DNA from: Sulfurimonas sp.
GTDB taxonomy: Bacteria; Campylobacterota; Campylobacteria; Campylobacterales; Sulfurimonadaceae
Direction of reading: 5' to 3'
Assembly (NCBI RefSeq): GCF_018698455.1
Contig: NZ_JABIOQ010000057.1
Coordinates: forward strand, 1-45,560
DNA: 45,560 nucleotides
Shown here: positions 10,764-35,811 of the stretch, piece by piece
Numbering within the stretch: position 1 is the first letter of the stretch
Layout: each line of letters begins with the position of its first letter
Made by a program: the position numbers and the translations under genes
The notes under the pieces: generated by a model
Seen by the model: only the letters and a program-made list of their open reading frames with translations
Databases searched by the model: none
What the model was told of the DNA's origin: nothing

Positions 10764-11168
10764 ATGGTAGGTATCTCTACAAAGGGTACATATGCTATTG
10801 CTGCAATGCATGTTCTGGAGCATTCTACAAATAATGAATTGATGCAGATACGAGAAATATCCGCACTCACTCAAATTTCACATGGATATTTAGAACAGAT
10901 TTTAGCTACACTTAGGAAGTCTGGATTTGTGACAAGTGTACGTGGTGCCAATGGTGGCTATAAACTGTCTCGTAGTCCTGACGACATAATAGTATTAGAT
11001 GTTATAGAATCTTTAGAAGGCGAACTTTTTACTCCTTATGAAGAACCCGGTGCAAGTGTTGTTCTAACGGCATTTTGGAGTGATACTCAGTCTCAAATTC
11101 GTGAAGTCTTTAATATTAAACTTTCAGATTTAGATAAGGCATTTGAAGTATACTATTATCAAATTTAA
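10764..11168 (+). CDS. Rrf2-family transcriptional regulator lacking cysteines
   Basis: A 134-residue winged-helix protein with the Rrf2 hallmark: STKGTYAIAAMHVLEH at the N-terminus, the recognition region ISHGYLEQILATLRKSGFV, and the wing VRGANGGYKLSRSP. It contains no cysteine at all, so it cannot carry the [2Fe-2S] cluster of IscR or NsrR and is closer in kind to cluster-free members such as CymR. It begins immediately after the DUF4395 stop. It probably controls its own operon or nearby sulfur genes, but the ligand is unknown. Confidence 0.85.
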   Translation: MVGISTKGTYAIAAMHVLEHSTNNELMQIREISALTQISHGYLEQILATLRKSGFVTSVRGANGGYKLSRSPDDIIVLDVIESLEGELFTPYEEPGASVVLTAFWSDTQSQIREVFNIKLSDLDKAFEVYYYQI

Positions 11169-11172
11169 TTCA

Positions 11173-11901
11173 TTAATTATTTAGATAGATTACCCCTGCA
11201 AACCTGCCATTGTCCTTTTTATGTCGATAAGAAAAATATTTATCTTTCTTGCATAATGTACACTCGTTAGATTCTTCAATATTTTTTTCATCTATGCCAG
11301 CAAGTAAAAGTTGTTTCTTTAAAATTGCATTGATATTTAAGAGATATTTATTGTCTCTTGGCTGCAGAGCATACCCTAGCCCAAGTAACATTGCCTCATC
11401 ATATATTTCGCTGCCTACTTCATAACAACAGGAATGAATATTCGCTCCAATAGCGACATAAATATTATCTATGGAAGAATTAAAATCATTGATAAATGAG
11501 GAAAGTGTAGTTTGCACTATATTTTGAAATACCCCAGATCTTCCTGCATGTGCAACTGCAATAACCTTTTTTATATCATCATAAAATAAGATGGGAGCAC
11601 AATCTGCAACCATCACCATTAGTGGAGTATGTATTTTATTTGTTATAAGTGCATCACAAGTTGGAGGGCTTAAGTAATTATCTTGTTCTGTAAGGATTTG
11701 AATTTTATTTGAATGAACCTGTTTCATATGTACAAGTTTATTTTTGTCGTAATTTAATTTTTTGGCTAAGTCTTGATGATTTTTATTGACTAAGTCGATG
11801 TCATCGTTTACATGGAATGCTAGATTCCCATCATTCTTAGATGTAAAGGAGTATGTGATATTTGTAAATTGCTTTAATATGCTTATTTGATTAATTTTCA
11901 T
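11173..11901 (-). CDS. pgeF: PgeF/YfiH-family multicopper-type hydrolase
   Basis: A 242-residue cytoplasmic protein of the YfiH/YlmD (laccase-domain) family. The metal and nucleophile motifs MVADCAPILFYD and VAHAGRSGVFQNIV and the central SCCYEVGSEIYDEA are intact. Family members have purine nucleoside phosphorylase/adenosine deaminase activity, and E. coli PgeF edits peptidoglycan precursors carrying L-Ser. I start it at the ATG complementary to 11899-11901; an upstream in-frame ATG (11931) would add ten residues and run almost into the ovoA start. It converges on the Rrf2 gene with only 4 bp between stops. Confidence 0.88.
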   Translation of the reverse strand: MKINQISILKQFTNITYSFTSKNDGNLAFHVNDDIDLVNKNHQDLAKKLNYDKNKLVHMKQVHSNKIQILTEQDNYLSPPTCDALITNKIHTPLMVMVADCAPILFYDDIKKVIAVAHAGRSGVFQNIVQTTLSSFINDFNSSIDNIYVAIGANIHSCCYEVGSEIYDEAMLLGLGYALQPRDNKYLLNINAILKKQLLLAGIDEKNIEESNECTLCKKDKYFSYRHKKDNGRFAGVIYLNN

Positions 11902-11935
11902 ATAATAATTATAACAAAAATAAAAGGTCATTTTC

Positions 11936-14035
11936 TTGAGTAAACAAAGTTTGTATAGTGTGACACTGAATGGTGAAAGCGTAGAGAGTAAACGCCATGA
12001 GATAAAAGAGTATTTCGATTCTACATTTTCTCTTTTTGAGAGTGTGTTTGAGGTACTTAAAGATGATGAAGTTTTTTATCAAAAGTCTGAGTTGACACGC
12101 CATCCAATGATTTTTTATTTTGGACATACTGCAACTTTTTTTATAAATAAATTAATGTATATGAAGATAATCACTCAAAGAATCAACCCTGACTTTGAAT
12201 CACTTTTTGCTGTAGGTGTTGATGAAATGTCATGGGATAATATGGGTCATGTAAGAGATAAATGGCCTGAATTAGATGAGCTTAGAAAATATAGACAATC
12301 AGTAAAAGAATTAGTGAGTAAACTTATATTTGAACTTCCCTTAACTCTTCCAATACAAAAAGATTCTCCAATGTGGATAGTACTTATGGGTATAGAGCAT
12401 GAAAGAATCCATATAGAGACATCTTTAGTGCTTCATAGACAGATGCCTTTAGAATTAGTAAAAGAAACAGAAAAATTTCAAATTAATCAAGAAAGTGGAA
12501 AGGCTCCAAAGAATTCTATGATTGAGATAGCGGCTTCTGACATACAACTGGGAGTAGATGATTCTCATAATTTGTACTCTTGGGATAATGAATATGGCAG
12601 TTATGAAGAATGTCTACCCACCTTTTCTGCATCAAAATACTTAGTTAGTAATGGAGAATTTTTAAAATTTGTTAATGATGGTGGGTACAGCAATCTTGAG
12701 TACTGGGATGAAGAGGGCTTAGAGTTTTTAGAAAAGACAAAAGCAAAATACCCTCATTTTTGGATACTAAAAGATGGGGTATATAGTTATAGAACACTTA
12801 ACTCTGAAATAGAGATGCCTTATGACTGGCCAGTAGATGTTAATGCTCTTGAAGCAGAGGCATTCTGTCGTTACAAGTCAGATAAAGAAGGAATTACCTA
12901 CCAGCTTCCAAGTGAAAGTGAGTATCGAGCTATCTATGAGTATGCTTTACTTAAAGATGTCCCCGAGTTTCAAAGTGAAAATGCCAATGTTGACTTTGCT
13001 CATTATGCTAGTTCAGTACCTGTAAATAAATTTAGTTTTAATGGTATTTATGATGTTGTAGGAAATGTTTGGCAATGGAGTAGAACAGCTATTTTTAGTT
13101 TTAAAGGTTTTGAAGTGCATGAGGCTTACGATGATTTCTCTGTACCAACTTTTGATAATAAACATGCACTTGTTCTTGGCTCTTCATGGGCAAGTAGTGG
13201 TAACTTGATAGCGAAAAATTCTCGTTACGCATTTAGAAAGCACTTCTTTCAAAATGCAGGTTTTAGATATGTAATAACAGATAAAAAGGATAAAGAAATG
13301 GCAGATATTTATGAAAGTGATGAGTTAGTTTCACAATATTGTGAATTCCAATATGGGAATACACATTTTGGAGTAGAAAATTTTTCAATAGAAACAGCAA
13401 AAATATCTTCAAAATATGCGATAAATAAAGGCAAGGCTCTTGATTTAGGTTGTGCAACAGGACGAGCGAGTTATGAACTCGCTCGAGAATTTGATAAAGT
13501 TGAGGGTATAGATTTCTCTGTACGTTTTGTACAAGTTGGAGCAAAGTTAAAGTCAGATGGATATGTTGCGTTTAGTAGTAAAGAAGAGGGTGAGTTAGTA
13601 ACTAGCAAAAAAGTAAGCATAGATGAACTAGGTTATGAAATACTTGCAGAGAAGGTTTCCTTTTGGCAAGGTGATGCATGTAACTTAAATCAAGAGTTTA
13701 CAGGTTATGATTTAGTGATGGCAACAAATTTAATAGACAGACTATATGATCCAAGATTATTCCTAGATACAATAGATGAACGTTTAAATACAGATGGTAT
13801 TTTAGTCATTACATCTCCTTACACATGGCAAGAAAGCTCTACAAAAAAAGAATTTTGGTTGGGTGGATTTACTGATACAAATGGGAAAGATGTGAGAACA
13901 ATAGAAAGTTTACAAAACATATTGGGCGATAAGTTTGCACTTATGCATAAAGAAGATGTAGATTTTGTTATAAAAGAGACAGCTAGAAAATATCAGCATA
14001 CTATATCGGAGTTGAGTGTTTGGAAAAAAAAGTAA
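11936..14035 (+). CDS. ovoA: 5-histidylcysteine sulfoxide synthase / methyltransferase (OvoA)
   Basis: A 699-residue three-part protein. Residues about 1-170 are a DinB-like domain with candidate iron ligands H64 (FGHTATFF) and H155/H159 (IEHERIHIE). Residues about 190-445 are an FGE-sulfatase-like domain (GNVWQWSRTAIF, LGSSWASSGN, NAGFRYV). Residues about 495-699 are a SAM-dependent methyltransferase (ALDLGCATGRASYELA, GIDFS). This order is that of OvoA, the non-haem iron enzyme that joins cysteine to histidine at C5 as a sulfoxide; the methyltransferase later methylates 5-thiohistidine to ovothiol. The start is TTG with AAAAGG 8 bases upstream. It overlaps the PLP enzyme gene by 16 bp. Confidence 0.92.
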   Translation: MSKQSLYSVTLNGESVESKRHEIKEYFDSTFSLFESVFEVLKDDEVFYQKSELTRHPMIFYFGHTATFFINKLMYMKIITQRINPDFESLFAVGVDEMSWDNMGHVRDKWPELDELRKYRQSVKELVSKLIFELPLTLPIQKDSPMWIVLMGIEHERIHIETSLVLHRQMPLELVKETEKFQINQESGKAPKNSMIEIAASDIQLGVDDSHNLYSWDNEYGSYEECLPTFSASKYLVSNGEFLKFVNDGGYSNLEYWDEEGLEFLEKTKAKYPHFWILKDGVYSYRTLNSEIEMPYDWPVDVNALEAEAFCRYKSDKEGITYQLPSESEYRAIYEYALLKDVPEFQSENANVDFAHYASSVPVNKFSFNGIYDVVGNVWQWSRTAIFSFKGFEVHEAYDDFSVPTFDNKHALVLGSSWASSGNLIAKNSRYAFRKHFFQNAGFRYVITDKKDKEMADIYESDELVSQYCEFQYGNTHFGVENFSIETAKISSKYAINKGKALDLGCATGRASYELAREFDKVEGIDFSVRFVQVGAKLKSDGYVAFSSKEEGELVTSKKVSIDELGYEILAEKVSFWQGDACNLNQEFTGYDLVMATNLIDRLYDPRLFLDTIDERLNTDGILVITSPYTWQESSTKKEFWLGGFTDTNGKDVRTIESLQNILGDKFALMHKEDVDFVIKETARKYQHTISELSVWKKK

Positions 14036-15225
14036 GTTACGATTTCTCTCACGGTAGTTGCAGAAAAGATACAAATGCAGAGAAATATACTTTAAGAAAA
14101 GAGCTCTTTGGAACGGATGATGTAGAACCTGTATGGGTTGCAGATATGGACATTGATACACCAGAATTTGTTTTAAATGCAGTATCAAATAGACTTAAAC
14201 ATCCTATAATCGGGTATGAAGAAGTTCCTAAATCTGCAATTAAAGCTCAAATTAAGTGGATGAAGAAAGAGCATGGTGTGCTATTCGAAATAGAAGACAT
14301 ATTTTACTCTCATTCTGTAGTTGCGTCTATGTCTGCAGCTATTGAAGCTTTTACCAAAAAAGGCGAGGGTGTAATAGTACAGACTCCTGTTTATCCTCCT
14401 TTTTTCAAGAGTGTGTTAAGACTTGAAAGAAGACTAGTAAAAAATCCATTGAAAGTAGATAAAAATGGTATGTACACTTTTGATATAGAGGGATTGAAGT
14501 CTCAAATAGATGAAGAGACAAAGCTATTATTACTATGTTCCCCACATAACCCTGTTGGTCGCGTTTGGAGAAGAGAAGAACTTAAAGAGATTTTAAAAGT
14601 ATGTTTAGAAAATAATATTGTTGTATTTAGTGATGAAGTTCATTGTGACTTAATCTATAAAGGACATAAACATATTCCATTTGCGTCTTTATCCGAAGAT
14701 GCTAGAAATATTACTATGACTGCTATTGGAGTTGGTAAAACATTTAACATGGCTGGATTTGCTATAAGTACAATCGCAATTCCAAATAAAGAGTTAAGAG
14801 AAAGATTTCAGGTTATATATGACAGAATACATTTCGCCGAGGGAAGTGTTTTATCTCATGTCGCATTTGAGAGTGCATATACTAACGGAAAAGAGTGGAT
14901 AAAAGAACTAAAAGTACATCTTTATAAGAACTATACAGATCTTAGGTTATTATGTAAAAAATACTCTGAATATATAGAATTAACTCCCATTGAAGGGACA
15001 TATTTAGCATGGCTAAACTGTCGAGGAATGATGATTAGTGACAAGGAATTACGTCGTTTTTTTGTGGAAGAGGCAAGACTAGGACTGAATGCAGGTTTGA
15101 GCTTTTCACGAGAAGGAAGTGGCTTTATGCGCTTGAATTTTGCTGTATCTTCAGCTAAAATGTCAGAAATATTAGAGAGACTAGAGGATGCTCTTAAAAG
15201 TAGAAGGAGTACTAATGGGTATTAG
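14020..15225 (+). CDS. ovoB: PLP-dependent C-S lyase, probable OvoB
   Basis: A 401-residue fold-I PLP enzyme of the MalY/PatB (cystathionine beta-lyase-like) class: VWVADMDIDTPEFV, the cofactor region LCSPHNPVGRVW, SDEVHCDL and the PLP lysine in GVGKTFNMAGF (about K240). Starting with TTG inside the end of ovoA (16-bp overlap), it is the expected partner that cleaves the histidylcysteine sulfoxide to 5-thiohistidine, the role shown for OvoB. By sequence alone it could be a general cystathionine beta-lyase; the overlap with ovoA is the reason for the OvoB call. Confidence 0.75.
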   Translation: MEKKVSYDFSHGSCRKDTNAEKYTLRKELFGTDDVEPVWVADMDIDTPEFVLNAVSNRLKHPIIGYEEVPKSAIKAQIKWMKKEHGVLFEIEDIFYSHSVVASMSAAIEAFTKKGEGVIVQTPVYPPFFKSVLRLERRLVKNPLKVDKNGMYTFDIEGLKSQIDEETKLLLLCSPHNPVGRVWRREELKEILKVCLENNIVVFSDEVHCDLIYKGHKHIPFASLSEDARNITMTAIGVGKTFNMAGFAISTIAIPNKELRERFQVIYDRIHFAEGSVLSHVAFESAYTNGKEWIKELKVHLYKNYTDLRLLCKKYSEYIELTPIEGTYLAWLNCRGMMISDKELRRFFVEEARLGLNAGLSFSREGSGFMRLNFAVSSAKMSEILERLEDALKSRRSTNGY

Positions 15226-15424
15226 TTGGGAAGAGTATAAAGAGTATAAAAATAGTAGTGTATATAGTGATAATTTTGAAATCTTATTAGATTTTATGAA
15301 AAGCTACTATGGTATAAGAAGTGTAAATCAGATGTTTACAGTTTTAAATGAAGATGATACAGCAAAGATGATGCTTAGTAAACGTGAGATAAAAAGTGCT
15401 GTTGATTTAGAAGAGTATCTATAG
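15215..15424 (+). CDS. Small protein of unknown function after ovoB
   Basis: A 69-residue, mostly polar protein that I do not recognise. I start it at the ATG at 15215, which has AAGGAG 5 bases upstream; the longer form from 15188 is less likely. It overlaps the 3' end of ovoB by 11 bp, so it is translated from the same message. The sequence is rich in Tyr, Glu and Lys with no cysteine or membrane segment (MGISWEEYKEYKN at the start, AVDLEEYL at the end), and looks helical. A link to ovothiol synthesis is suggested only by position. Confidence 0.6.
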   Translation: MGISWEEYKEYKNSSVYSDNFEILLDFMKSYYGIRSVNQMFTVLNEDDTAKMMLSKREIKSAVDLEEYL

Positions 15425-15430
15425 TGTTAA

Positions 15431-15604
15431 TTATTTGAGATTAGCCTTTTGCTCATACATGGAGCATTCAACTCCACTACTTTGAAATACCACCATAGAT
15501 GGAATCTGGGATGATTTAAACCCATAGGCTTTACATCCATGAGGTTTAGTCTTCTCCCATGTTACATAATAGTGTTCACACTTTCTACAATTAAGTCTTT
15601 TCAT
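15431..15604 (-). CDS. Short cysteine-motif protein (57 residues)
   Basis: A short reading frame on the minus strand: it begins MKRLNCRKCEHYYVTWEK, continues KPHGCKAYGFKS and ends VECSMYEQKANLK. It has four cysteines spaced C-x2-C...C...C, so a small zinc- or iron-binding fold is plausible. A purine-rich GAGAGA lies a few bases before the ATG (15602-15604). Similar tiny proteins occur in other Campylobacterota as far as I remember, often misnamed. It converges on the ovo operon with 6 bp between stops. Function unknown. Confidence 0.7.
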   Translation of the reverse strand: MKRLNCRKCEHYYVTWEKTKPHGCKAYGFKSSQIPSMVVFQSSGVECSMYEQKANLK

Positions 15605-15695: not shown

Positions 15696-16385
15696 ATGGA
15701 CAAAATTTTACTAATGCTACAATTACAAAATCAACTTAATGAAGCAACTAATGGTTATAAATGGACAGATGGAATAACTAAAAATGGAAAAACTATAAAT
15801 TGGAGACGCTGCATTTATATGGAATGTGCTGAAATGGTTGATAGTTTTTCTTGGAAGCATTGGAAGAGCCTAGATAAAGAACCAGATTGGGATAACCATC
15901 AGATAGAAGTTGTAGATGTTTGGCATTTCATCATGAGTTTGGCTATAGAAGAGTATTCAAAAAACTTAAGAGGTGGTGTTGAAGACTTGGGAATTAGTAT
16001 TGCACAATATCTTAACTTTGATGCTATAGATACGAATAAAGAGAATTTTGCTAAACAAGAAGATGTAATAGAACAAGTTGAAAATATAATACGCTTGAGT
16101 ATTAATGATGGAGAGCTAAATTTAGAAATACTTATTGCAGATTTCTTTAACTTAGTGATCATGAGCGGACTTAATTTAGATACTCTTTATAAATTATATA
16201 TTGGGAAAAATGTACTTAACCAGTTCCGTCAAGACCATGGATATAAAGATGGTACATACATAAAAATTTGGAATGGCGAAGAAGATAATGTTGTTATGAA
16301 AAGAGTCTGGGAAGATGATAGTAATATTAAACCTGACAATCTTTATAAAGAATTAGCGAAAGTATATCTCTCTTTAAAGGCATAA
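15696..16385 (+). CDS. dut: Dimeric all-alpha dUTPase
   Basis: A 229-residue protein of the all-alpha NTP pyrophosphohydrolase type, like the dimeric dUTPases of Campylobacter and trypanosomatids rather than the trimeric beta form. Substrate-binding and magnesium-binding features are seen in NGYKWTDGITKNGK, RCIYMECAEMVDSFSWKHWK (ExxE and the SWKHWK loop) and EVVDVWHFIMSL (ExxD). It hydrolyses dUTP to dUMP and pyrophosphate, keeping uracil out of DNA. GGCGAG precedes the ATG. The ABC ATPase gene follows with 3 bp between. Confidence 0.9.
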   Translation: MDKILLMLQLQNQLNEATNGYKWTDGITKNGKTINWRRCIYMECAEMVDSFSWKHWKSLDKEPDWDNHQIEVVDVWHFIMSLAIEEYSKNLRGGVEDLGISIAQYLNFDAIDTNKENFAKQEDVIEQVENIIRLSINDGELNLEILIADFFNLVIMSGLNLDTLYKLYIGKNVLNQFRQDHGYKDGTYIKIWNGEEDNVVMKRVWEDDSNIKPDNLYKELAKVYLSLKA

Positions 16386-30681: not shown

Positions 30682-32005
30682 TGTAAAAGTCAAAAGCATA
30701 AAACTATCCAAATTCCTATAATCTCTTTCTTTTTAACTCTATCAACTCTTATCTTTAGTGCTGTAGTATCCATAAAGATTATTGGATGGATTTTATCGAG
30801 TGGACAACTTAATTTCATAAATAATATTTTTCCACTAAAAATCATCGGGAAAAAAGAAACTATATCTATTCTCGACTTAGAGCTATTTGATATAGATGCA
30901 AAAGTAGATACTGGAGCGGATTCAAATGCTCTGCATTGCGATAATATAGAGATAGATAAGCATGGTTTTGTTCACTTTCACTTATTAGATGAAGTTCATC
31001 CATCTTATCATGGCAAAAGAATAAGTATGCCTTTGTACAAAGTTAAAAAGGTTAGAAGCTCAAACGGTGAACTTCAAGAAAGGCCATCCATAAAAGTGAG
31101 TGTAGAGTTTTTTGGAAAAAGATATGAAACTGTTGTATCTTTAACAAATAGGGCAGATATGAAATATCCTATGCTAATAGGAAGACACTTTTTAAGTGGT
31201 AAGTTTTTAGTAGATGTGTCCCAAGAGTATTTAGCAAATAACAAAAAAGGAGAATGGATGAACGTATATATATTACCAAGAAATAAAGAGTTGTATTCAA
31301 CAAAAAGATTAGTCGAAGCGGCTGTAGCTAAAGGTTGGGAAGTTAGAGTAATTGATTACTTAAAATGTTCTATAGAAATAATGAAAGGTGAACTTCATAT
31401 TAACTATTTAGGGGAACAGTTACCTGTTCCGGATGCAATTATTCCTAGAATTGGCGCTAGCCGAACTTTTTACGGTACGGCGATGGTAAGACACTTTGAG
31501 TGGTGGAACACCATTGATCTTGAAAATATTGGAAGGAACTCAAGGAGTAGGCGTTGTTTTGGTAGATACTGAAAAAGCGGCAAAGTCGGTTCTTGATGCA
31601 TTTTATGGAATGGATGTAAGCTTACTCGTGCAAGAGTTTATTAAAGAAACGGGTGGTGCTGATATTAGAGCATTAATCGTCGGTGGAGAAGTTGTAGGTG
31701 CTATGAAACACCAAGGTGCCGAAGGTGATTTTAGATCAAACCTTCATCAAGGTGGAAGTGCTACGGCTCATAAACTAACTCGTAAAGAGAAATCAACGGC
31801 ACTTGCAGCCGCTAAAGCTATGGGCCTTGGAGTTTGTGGCGTTGATATGATTGAGTCCGCTCGTGGACCGCTTGTTATGGAAGTAAATTCATCCCCTGGT
31901 TTAGAGGGTATTGAAAAATCAACAAAGCTAGACATAGCCGGGAAAATTATGGATTACATAGAAAAAAATGTTACTCCAAAATCAGATACGACGGCTAAAA
32001 AGTAG
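30682..32005 (+). pseudogene. Broken membrane-anchored RimB-type protease / RimK ligase fusion
   Basis: One open frame runs from 30682 to 31572: a hydrophobic anchor (IISFFLTLSTLIFSAVVSI), a retropepsin-like 'ATP-dependent zinc protease' domain (AKVDTGADSNALHC, LIGRHFLSGKFLVDVS), then the RimK pre-ATP-grasp segment ending TAMVRHFE. The ATP-grasp half ([32 protein letters not shown]) continues in another frame at 31496-32005. About 50 residues that RimK proteins carry between MVRHFE and GG(A/T)PLI are missing, so a deletion of roughly 155 bp with frame change is inferred. No ATG, GTG or TTG start exists in frame before 31027; an ATG one base out of frame at 30681 may be the old start. Confidence 0.8.
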
Positions 32006-33945: not shown

Positions 33946-34048
33946 TGAAAATTATAGCATAACTTCACATAATGAATAGTATTCTAAATATATAACTTAA
34001 TTCATAATAAAATATAGTATAATTCTATTTAAATATTATTATAAATAA
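33946..34048. other. tetR upstream region truncated by an IS
   Basis: 103 bp of very AT-rich DNA between the tetR start and the left end of the IS. It holds several TATAAT-like words (for example GTATAATTC near 34018) and no gene. A tetR promoter and operator would be expected here. Confidence 0.45.
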
Positions 34049-35237
34049 TAACTGACCTTACACACCTTCAACAAACCTTATGCTTCTGTAATTCTAAATA
34101 AGCGATTTGATTAGCCTTAACTAATAGTTTAGCCCGGAGAGCAAAGTGATTCATTTTGTTTTTTATTTTCAAACATTCGAGTTTGAAAAATGCTAAAACA
34201 GATAAAAAGATATGATTGCTCTGTGTTCTAACTGTCTTTGTTGGTGACTTCGCCAAATCAACATTATGTTTGAGCGACTTATGATACTCTTCAACTTTCC
34301 ATCGTTTTTCATAGATTGTTGAAATTTCATTTCCATCAAGTTTAATGTCACTAGATACCAAATTCAAGATGCCTATACTTGCCGTGAGCAATAGCGAGGA
34401 AATACTCTTGGGGTGCCGTCTTTGTTTGTAAAGACTCGGCGGACAATAACAATTTCTTTGTCATATCCCTTTAAATTGCCTCGTATAGACTCTTTATACC
34501 CTCAAGGGGCACCCCGTCTGATAATTCTAGTTCATCTACTCTGACGAATTTCCCTGCATGCTTATTCTCTAAACTTGTTGCGAATAGTCGATTGCTTTTT
34601 AAAGCTGCTATAAACTCTTTATTTTTCTTGGTAATAAATTCAAAATTTTCTTTAGCTCCAAACCATGTATCCATGAGAATATATTTGAATTTTAGTTGAT
34701 TATTGATAGATGTTTGTATCATATCTCTCATCAACTCATTTTTTGCGATATCGGATTTTCTTTTTACTTGTCGTGTTTTGATATCACTAAACTGTATGGA
34801 TTTTTCTACTATCTCAAATGCTACTGGTATTGATGCTTCACCACTATAATATAAAGCATTCAACATATTGATACCTCTTACAGATTTACCAACAGTATGA
34901 TCAAAGTGCCAACACATAATATCACTCTCATCCGTCCATTTTTTCTCTTGAACTGTATCATCGAAAATCAAACATGCATCATCTTTTTCTACTTCTCGTA
35001 CAGTCCTTTTAACTTGAGCCCATAGGTCTTTAGAGTTAAATTCATTTTTAGACAAGAAACGAGTTATTTGATCATGACTCACTTCACCATCTAGCATTGA
35101 TGATAATCCAGTCGCTGTCGCATAACCATTTCCACTAATCAAATAATCCGTATAAAGCTCTATGTAGTCTGTTTGTTTTCTCATTATTTGTTTTACTATA
35201 TTTTTCTCTTTTTTCAAAAAGTCCGTAAGGTCAGTTA
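34049..35237 (-). mobile_element. IS4/IS701-like insertion sequence, 1189 bp
   Basis: Perfect 13-bp terminal inverted repeats TAACTGACCTTAC (34049-34061) and GTAAGGTCAGTTA (35225-35237) bound a DDE transposase gene on the minus strand. ATAA flanks both ends (34045-34048 and 35238-35241), which fits a 4-bp target duplication but could be chance in AT-rich DNA. The right end cuts a glutathione synthetase gene; no matching gene half is found at the left end, so a deletion or rearrangement probably followed insertion. Confidence 0.85.
34068..35184 (-). pseudogene. Frameshifted IS4/IS701-like DDE transposase
   Basis: The start is the ATG at 35182-35184 (MRKQTDYIELYTDYL). The N-terminal and middle parts carry the first catalytic Asp in CLIFDDTVQEKK (D75/D76) and the second in LMDTWFGAKENFEF, and the C-terminal part the YREK-type YEKRWKVEEYHKSLK with the Glu. 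The frame stops at 34471 and resumes as NLKGYDKEIVIVRRVF in another frame, then shifts again before LVSSDIKLDGNEIS (34391 onward). With at least two frame breaks it should be inactive unless supplied in trans. Confidence 0.85.
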
Positions 35238-35811
35238 ATAAAACAATTGAAGAATCAGAACAAGACAAGATGATACTTAAACCATTGGATGGTTCTGGTG
35301 GTCGTGGAGTTATAGTTCTAGAAAAAAATGCCCGCTCGAATATCAATTCTTTACTTGATTTTTATATTGATGAACTGGGGATAATTATGTAATTCTTCAA
35401 GAATATATTGAGGGAGTAGAAAACGGTGATGTTAGAGTATTGATGTTAAATGGTAAATTCATTGGAGCATATAACCGTAAACCTGCTGATGGAGAGATAC
35501 GAGCTAATATACAAGCTGGTGGAACAGTACATAAATATATAATGATAGAAAGTCAAAAGAAAGTATGTAAAAAAATAGGTACTAAACTTGTATCTAGTGG
35601 TTTATATTTTGTCGGTCTGGATATGATAGGCGATAAAATATTAGAAGTTAATGTATTAAATCCTGGCGGGATAACTAATATAAATAAACTTGAAAAACTA
35701 AAATTACAAAAACAAGTAGTAGATTTTTTAGAAGATAAAGTTGATGCAAAAGCTGAAAAAAGAGTAGAACTTGAATATTTACTAAAAAGATTTAGTGGAT
35801 TAAGAGAATAA
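35238..35811 (+). pseudogene. gshB: Glutathione synthetase, 5'-truncated and frameshifted
   Basis: The C-terminal half of a GshB-type ATP-grasp enzyme (gamma-glutamylcysteine plus glycine to glutathione). Right after the IS end the frame reads EESEQDKMILKPLDGSGGRG, the ATP-grasp start, then breaks near 35380 in a GGGG run and continues one frame over as GDNYVILQEYIEGVENGDVR, with VGLDMIGDKILEVNVLNPGG to the stop at 35811. The break is explained by loss of one G. The N-terminal 120 or so residues are absent from the window. Both faults make it nonfunctional, unless the G-run is a sequencing error, when it would still lack its start. Confidence 0.85.

Follow-up and report, generated by a model that had tools for sequence, protein, structure and literature searches.

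Three overlapping genes on a contig of Sulfurimonas sp. raise the question of whether this sulfur-oxidising marine bacterium encodes a route to the antioxidant ovothiol, and whether the short third gene has any part in it. The stretch of DNA analysed (45,560 nt, hereafter the window) belongs to a 2.23-Mb genome in 76 contigs, rated 98.1% complete. The three open reading frames, together with the 16-nt and 11-nt overlaps between them, were recovered as described in an earlier, sequence-only reading of this DNA (Table 1), and the observations made on ovoA, the lyase gene and the small gene (coordinates, scores, motifs and relatives) are not a product of chance. A longer, 78-residue form of the small gene starting at 15188 also figures among the predicted open reading frames; relatives favour the 69-residue start. 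Operon evidence was not provided by the scans for signals, promoter-like sites being fewer than in shuffled sequences and the one terminator site lying outside the operon. The window yielded no Rfam matches and no tRNAs.

Table 1. Genes of the ovo locus and its immediate surroundings in the window.
Feature	Coordinates	Strand	Remarks
pgeF, divergent from ovoA	11173..11931	-	TIGR00726 182.1 bits, cut-off 141.15; synteny
ovoA, sulfoxide synthase fused to 5-thiohistidine N-methyltransferase	11936..14035	+	699 aa, TTG start
PatB-family PLP C-S lyase, proposed ovoB	14020..15225	+	401 aa, TTG start; 16-nt overlap with ovoA
Small third gene, five-helix protein (predicted)	15215..15424	+	69 aa, ATG start; 11-nt overlap with the lyase gene
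57-aa cysteine-containing protein, convergent	15431..15604	-	Directly after the small gene here; synteny
dUTPase	15696..16385	+	NF049964 256.5 bits (below cut-off 300), PF08761 112.3 bits; synteny

The locus has recognizable borders, pgeF marking its upstream edge in most relatives and the dUTPase gene the downstream edge of the conserved neighbourhood. Gene order in the relatives is ovoA, lyase, small gene and yhbP, with yhbP lying between the small gene and the gene for the 57-residue protein. Among named records, the OvoA loci nearest by identity (74% at most) mostly carry Sulfurimonas labels. Two minor members of the neighbourhood deserve mention. The 57-residue protein contains several cysteines and is kept at the site in most relatives; searches of Pfam and NCBIfam gave no match to it. 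An Rrf2-type regulator (CymR/IscR-like, 10764-11168) devoid of cysteine has its gene near ovoA in the window, an arrangement shared by only some of the relatives.

The first gene product consists of DinB_2, FGE-sulfatase and methyltransferase domains, and exceeds the cut-offs of both curated models for the enzyme, namely TIGR04344 for the N-terminal sulfoxide synthase (616.9 bits, cut-off 400) and TIGR04345 for the C-terminal methyltransferase (312.5 bits, cut-off 170). Residues 9-698 of its 699 align to the solved OvoA 8khq (E 1.3e-236), a 5-histidylcysteine sulfoxide synthase/methyltransferase with the same three-domain layout and the same histidine motifs, so that only sequence divergence separates the two proteins. 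We take 8khq to come from Hydrogenimonas thermophila, which shares its phylum with the host. His64, His155 and His159, presumably the iron ligands, lie in the motifs FGHTA and EHERIHIE and are identical in 8khq. The three-domain OvoA with an intact histidine triad proposed by the sequence-only reading is thus borne out by the two curated models, the end-to-end alignment and the identical histidines. Models of related enzymes scored far below their cut-offs on this protein (EgtB, 164.1 bits against 360; SenA, 146.7 bits against 420), and solved OvsA chains reached 61-62 bits against it, compared with 790 for OvoA. By these scores, the 699-residue protein is an OvoA rather than EgtB, SenA or OvsA. 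The idea that residue 405 of 8khq is a tyrosine that determines regioselectivity was dropped, the aligned letter at that position, in the chain's own count, being isoleucine.

Judged by these matches, the assignment of ovothiol genes is sound, and it is ordinary for the host's family, in which OvoA is near universal (201 of 228 genomes, and 133 of the 139 good ones). OvoA requires oxygen. The host genome holds two COX1-family genes, which indicate that oxygen is probably used by the cell and thus plausibly available to the enzyme.

The second gene product scores 519.4 bits with TIGR04350 (PatB C-S lyase, cut-off 340) and has a GVGKTF motif around the expected PLP lysine, for which we take the lysine of the motif. 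This model found five matches in the host genome, the lyase being the only one over the cut-off. The solved structures nearest to the protein are C-S lyases of PatB type, among them a cystathionine beta-lyase named PatB and also a cysteine-S-conjugate beta-lyase. Since lyases of this type have broad substrate ranges, adjacency to ovoA is no proof of OvoB activity, and the protein could be a beta-lyase of general function, acting on cystathionine or cysteine conjugates, and a mere neighbour of ovoA. We consider this very unlikely, given that the order of ovoA and lyase is kept in most relatives, that the two genes move jointly, and that an enzyme of direct sulfhydrylation is present for homocysteine. 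Two strong Cys/Met-metabolism PLP genes occur elsewhere in the host genome; one exceeds the cut-off of the O-acetylhomoserine sulfhydrylase model (572.6 bits against 495.1), and the nearest model of the other is the same, at 343.3 bits, below the cut-off. The former suggests that homocysteine would be made by direct sulfhydrylation, for which the lyase would not be needed. As the sole PatB gene over the cut-off, located directly behind ovoA in most relatives and moving with it, the lyase gene is therefore supported as the best candidate for ovoB. The earlier assignment to OvoB holds with respect to family, linkage and joint movement with ovoA, and cleavage of histidylcysteine sulfoxide stays a putative activity. 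In excerpts of a review (PMC9103826), OvoB of Erwinia tasmaniensis is described as the PLP-dependent C-S lyase in the ovothiol pathway; that enzyme and the lyase of the window, a member of the PatB family TIGR04350, are likened here by description only, both being C-S lyases encoded with ovoA.

Linkage of the two genes was assessed in two sets of OvoA loci that share species and are not independent. Among 80 named loci, the lyase gene lies within 200 nt in 63 and at a greater distance downstream, 0.95-4.3 kb on the same strand, in 11; three loci end at a contig edge, and three have no lyase gene. The second set of 39 loci is part of a class sample in which 49 of 249 genomes matched over the cut-off and 40 regions were taken, of which one lacks ovoA and another represents a second, sub-cut-off copy. 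In the 15 loci of this set that come from the family, the lyase gene is found within 200 nt in 11, further down in three and nowhere near in one; for the 24 loci from other families of the order the corresponding figures are 13, none and 11 (no contig edges in either group). Adjacency of ovoA and the lyase gene is therefore not universal. The 16-nt overlap itself occurs in 23 of 55 loci, a figure that depends on starts chosen by a rough motif rule and is not counted as evidence.

Movement of the pair is best seen in genome G379. There, ovoA is located on contig C1 at 737753, a place equated by contig position with the named locus L124, in which ovoA and the lyase gene are the only marker genes seen; at the ancestral site on contig C2 (L171), the small gene, yhbP, the 57-residue protein gene and the dUTPase gene remain. 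Locus L128 likewise has ovoA and the lyase gene without their usual neighbours. These loci argue that ovoA and the lyase gene form a two-gene unit and relocate as one; this joint movement, like the enzyme families, the intact motifs and the gene overlap, can be read from the DNA itself.

Two further features of these loci were recorded. In several relatives, foreign genes stand between ovoA and the lyase gene (L047:7590-8501, L051:8706-12463, L050:7616-8932), which overlap elsewhere, and the gaps of L047 and L051 contain a cytosine DNA methyltransferase gene. Also, a record labelled Arcobacteraceae (L142:5968-10576) encodes an OvoA about 71% identical to that of the Sulfurimonas group, with the lyase gene 1.3 kb downstream, suggesting either transfer or a mislabelled record.

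The reading we prefer, and regard as very probable, is that OvoA and the lyase, acting as OvoB, constitute the standard pathway to ovothiol A, and that the small gene is a dispensable operon neighbour. With iron and oxygen, OvoA would attach cysteine, as a sulfoxide, to the C5 position of histidine, the PLP lyase encoded by the overlapping gene would cleave the sulfoxide to 5-thiohistidine, and the C-terminal domain of OvoA would methylate the latter to ovothiol A. The small helical protein would be co-transcribed, judging by position only, and would be historically paired with the lyase and yhbP but not needed for the pathway. The substrate of the lyase, the ovothiol product and its physiological role are what we infer from the genes, and a benefit of ovothiol in sulfide- and oxygen-rich habitats, as put forward in the earlier reading, may be supposed on the same footing.

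In order to follow the small gene, a profile was built from a 12-member alignment. It found the gene in 136 of 228 family genomes (86 of the 139 good ones) and in 12 of 18 genera. A search over 298 genomes of the class gave 16 members inside the family; four marginal matches outside it (20-23 bits, two with internal stops) were judged to be chance. The relatives are 43-58% identical, with 15 positions invariant in 12 sequences, which indicates that the 69-residue open reading frame is a real gene; family members measure about 73-80 residues. The protein that the earlier reading had left unassigned, overlapping the lyase gene, thus belongs to a family without a convincing member outside the host's own family.

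Neighbours were sorted for one locus per copy, in all 136 cases, allowing 500 nt on the same strand for the lyase gene and 300 nt for yhbP. Most copies have the lyase gene before and yhbP behind (108/136), and 14 have the lyase gene before but no adjacent yhbP. The rest have yhbP behind and another or no marker gene before (6), a contig end before and yhbP behind (2), neither gene adjacent (5), or another gene before and a contig end behind (1). In total, the small gene stands behind the lyase gene in 122 copies and directly ahead of yhbP in 116. A Sir2-type deacetylase gene follows it at two loci (L177, L180), and at three others (L182, L183, L184) it lies among unrelated genes.

These counts bear on two further proposals. 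According to the first, the small gene is itself an ovothiol gene, whose product helps by binding or stabilising one of the two enzymes, OvoA or the lyase, or by handling the thiol. The 122 copies within 500 nt behind the lyase gene on the same strand exceed what an unrelated passenger should show, and lyase-linked copies that lack a neighbouring yhbP, those of the window, L179, L252, L266 and L276 among them, fit the same idea. Co-occurrence with OvoA says little, however, OvoA being near universal, and the association is broken in both directions. Loci with ovoA and the lyase gene but without the small gene were found (L057, L058, L060, L293, L295, L297, L298, L299), and members of genus g5 and several Sulfurimonas do without it while possessing both ovothiol genes. 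Conversely, genome G010, rated 100% complete, has the small gene and yhbP beside pgeF and no ovoA match, and in G379 the small gene was left behind with ovoA and the lyase gene elsewhere. Several less complete genomes in which the small gene was found but ovoA was not were left out of this count, as was G389, which missed the OvoA threshold but has a fragment of the gene at a contig start. We therefore hold a helper role to be unlikely. Retention of the small gene with ovoA and the lyase gene is not strict, as it is absent from many loci and persists without ovoA, and its place as a functional part of the ovothiol operon was not upheld. Its separation from the pair suggests that it is probably not needed for ovothiol.

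The second proposal pairs the small gene with the PNPOx-like protein YhbP as its partner, the ovo genes having been placed ahead of these two. YhbP (UPF0306, NF002900) is the product of the gene that follows the small gene in relatives, scoring 109.4 bits, below the cut-off of 176. The 116 copies directly ahead of yhbP speak for such a partnership, and so do L055, L167, L168, L171, L178 and L229, in which yhbP adjoins and the lyase gene is not adjacent. On the other hand, the host has the small gene and no yhbP, which is absent from the window and gave no match in the host genome with a query that finds it in 203 relatives. At L179, L252, L266, L276, L100 and L144, as in the window, the gene for the 57-residue protein follows the small gene directly. 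Moreover, yhbP is far commoner (203/228 family genomes, 134 of the 139 good ones) than the small gene (136/228), and the 14 copies that keep the lyase gene but no adjacent yhbP indicate that the bond of the small gene to the lyase gene is as tight as that to yhbP. A partnership with YhbP is possible, though on balance doubtful. A literature search found no paper on YhbP/UPF0306 function.

The small protein itself was modelled from a 73-member alignment, drawn from the 95 sequences left after near copies among the 136 had been removed. The model has five helices (mean pLDDT 95.8, pTM 0.82). Cysteine is absent in 120 of the 136 members, a composition that speaks against a role based on thiols or clusters. 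The protein of the window had no Pfam or NCBIfam match; among the 73 members, no Pfam family was matched by more than three (best E 0.0011 among the 25 families shown). A profile search of the PDB gave nothing usable (best E 0.064), Foldseek comparison of the model with solved structures returned no matches at E up to 10, and a second structure comparison yielded no match reaching Z 2. The lack of a structural match to the model does not prove a new fold in a helical protein of such small size. Weak matches, for instance to Cas1 or TusE/DsrC (E 0.06-0.8), were taken as chance. Excerpts of one account describe the ovothiol pathway and state that proteins sensing or using 5-thiohistidines are almost unknown (PMC12631010). 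That the small protein founds a family tied to 5-thiohistidine chemistry, steering OvoA and the lyase or acting with YhbP on their product, seems quite unlikely.

Ovothiol genes in bacteria of this kind are already implied in print, as far as excerpts of PMC9103826 extend: OvoA/OvoB are reported there in Proteobacteria, about 2% of the species coming from vents, and the description of Sulfurimonas hongkongensis is cited for one of two anaerobic species. What is new is the near universality of ovoA within this sulfur-oxidising family, its mobility with the lyase gene as a pair, and a small protein family without a name that rides behind the pair, apparently not required. Provided that the thiol is indeed produced, these bacteria would lend themselves well to studying what ovothiol does in sulfur-oxidising cells.

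Elsewhere in the window, two stretches look disrupted. A C-terminal remnant of a glutathione synthetase gene (35255-35811, in two frames) abuts an IS701-type element with terminal inverted repeats at 34046-34068 and 35218-35240, whose transposase is encoded on the minus strand (NF049921, 229.4 bits, just below the cut-off of 250); element and remnant together occupy 34046-35811. As this remnant is the best match to the glutathione-synthetase domain in the genome (121.6 bits), glutathione synthesis may have been lost in the host, and the question of ovothiol in sulfur oxidisers becomes the more pointed. A stretch encoding a RimB/RloA-like aspartic peptidase and a RimK-like ligase (31027-32005) is split over two overlapping frames, suggesting that rimK is broken or frameshifted there.
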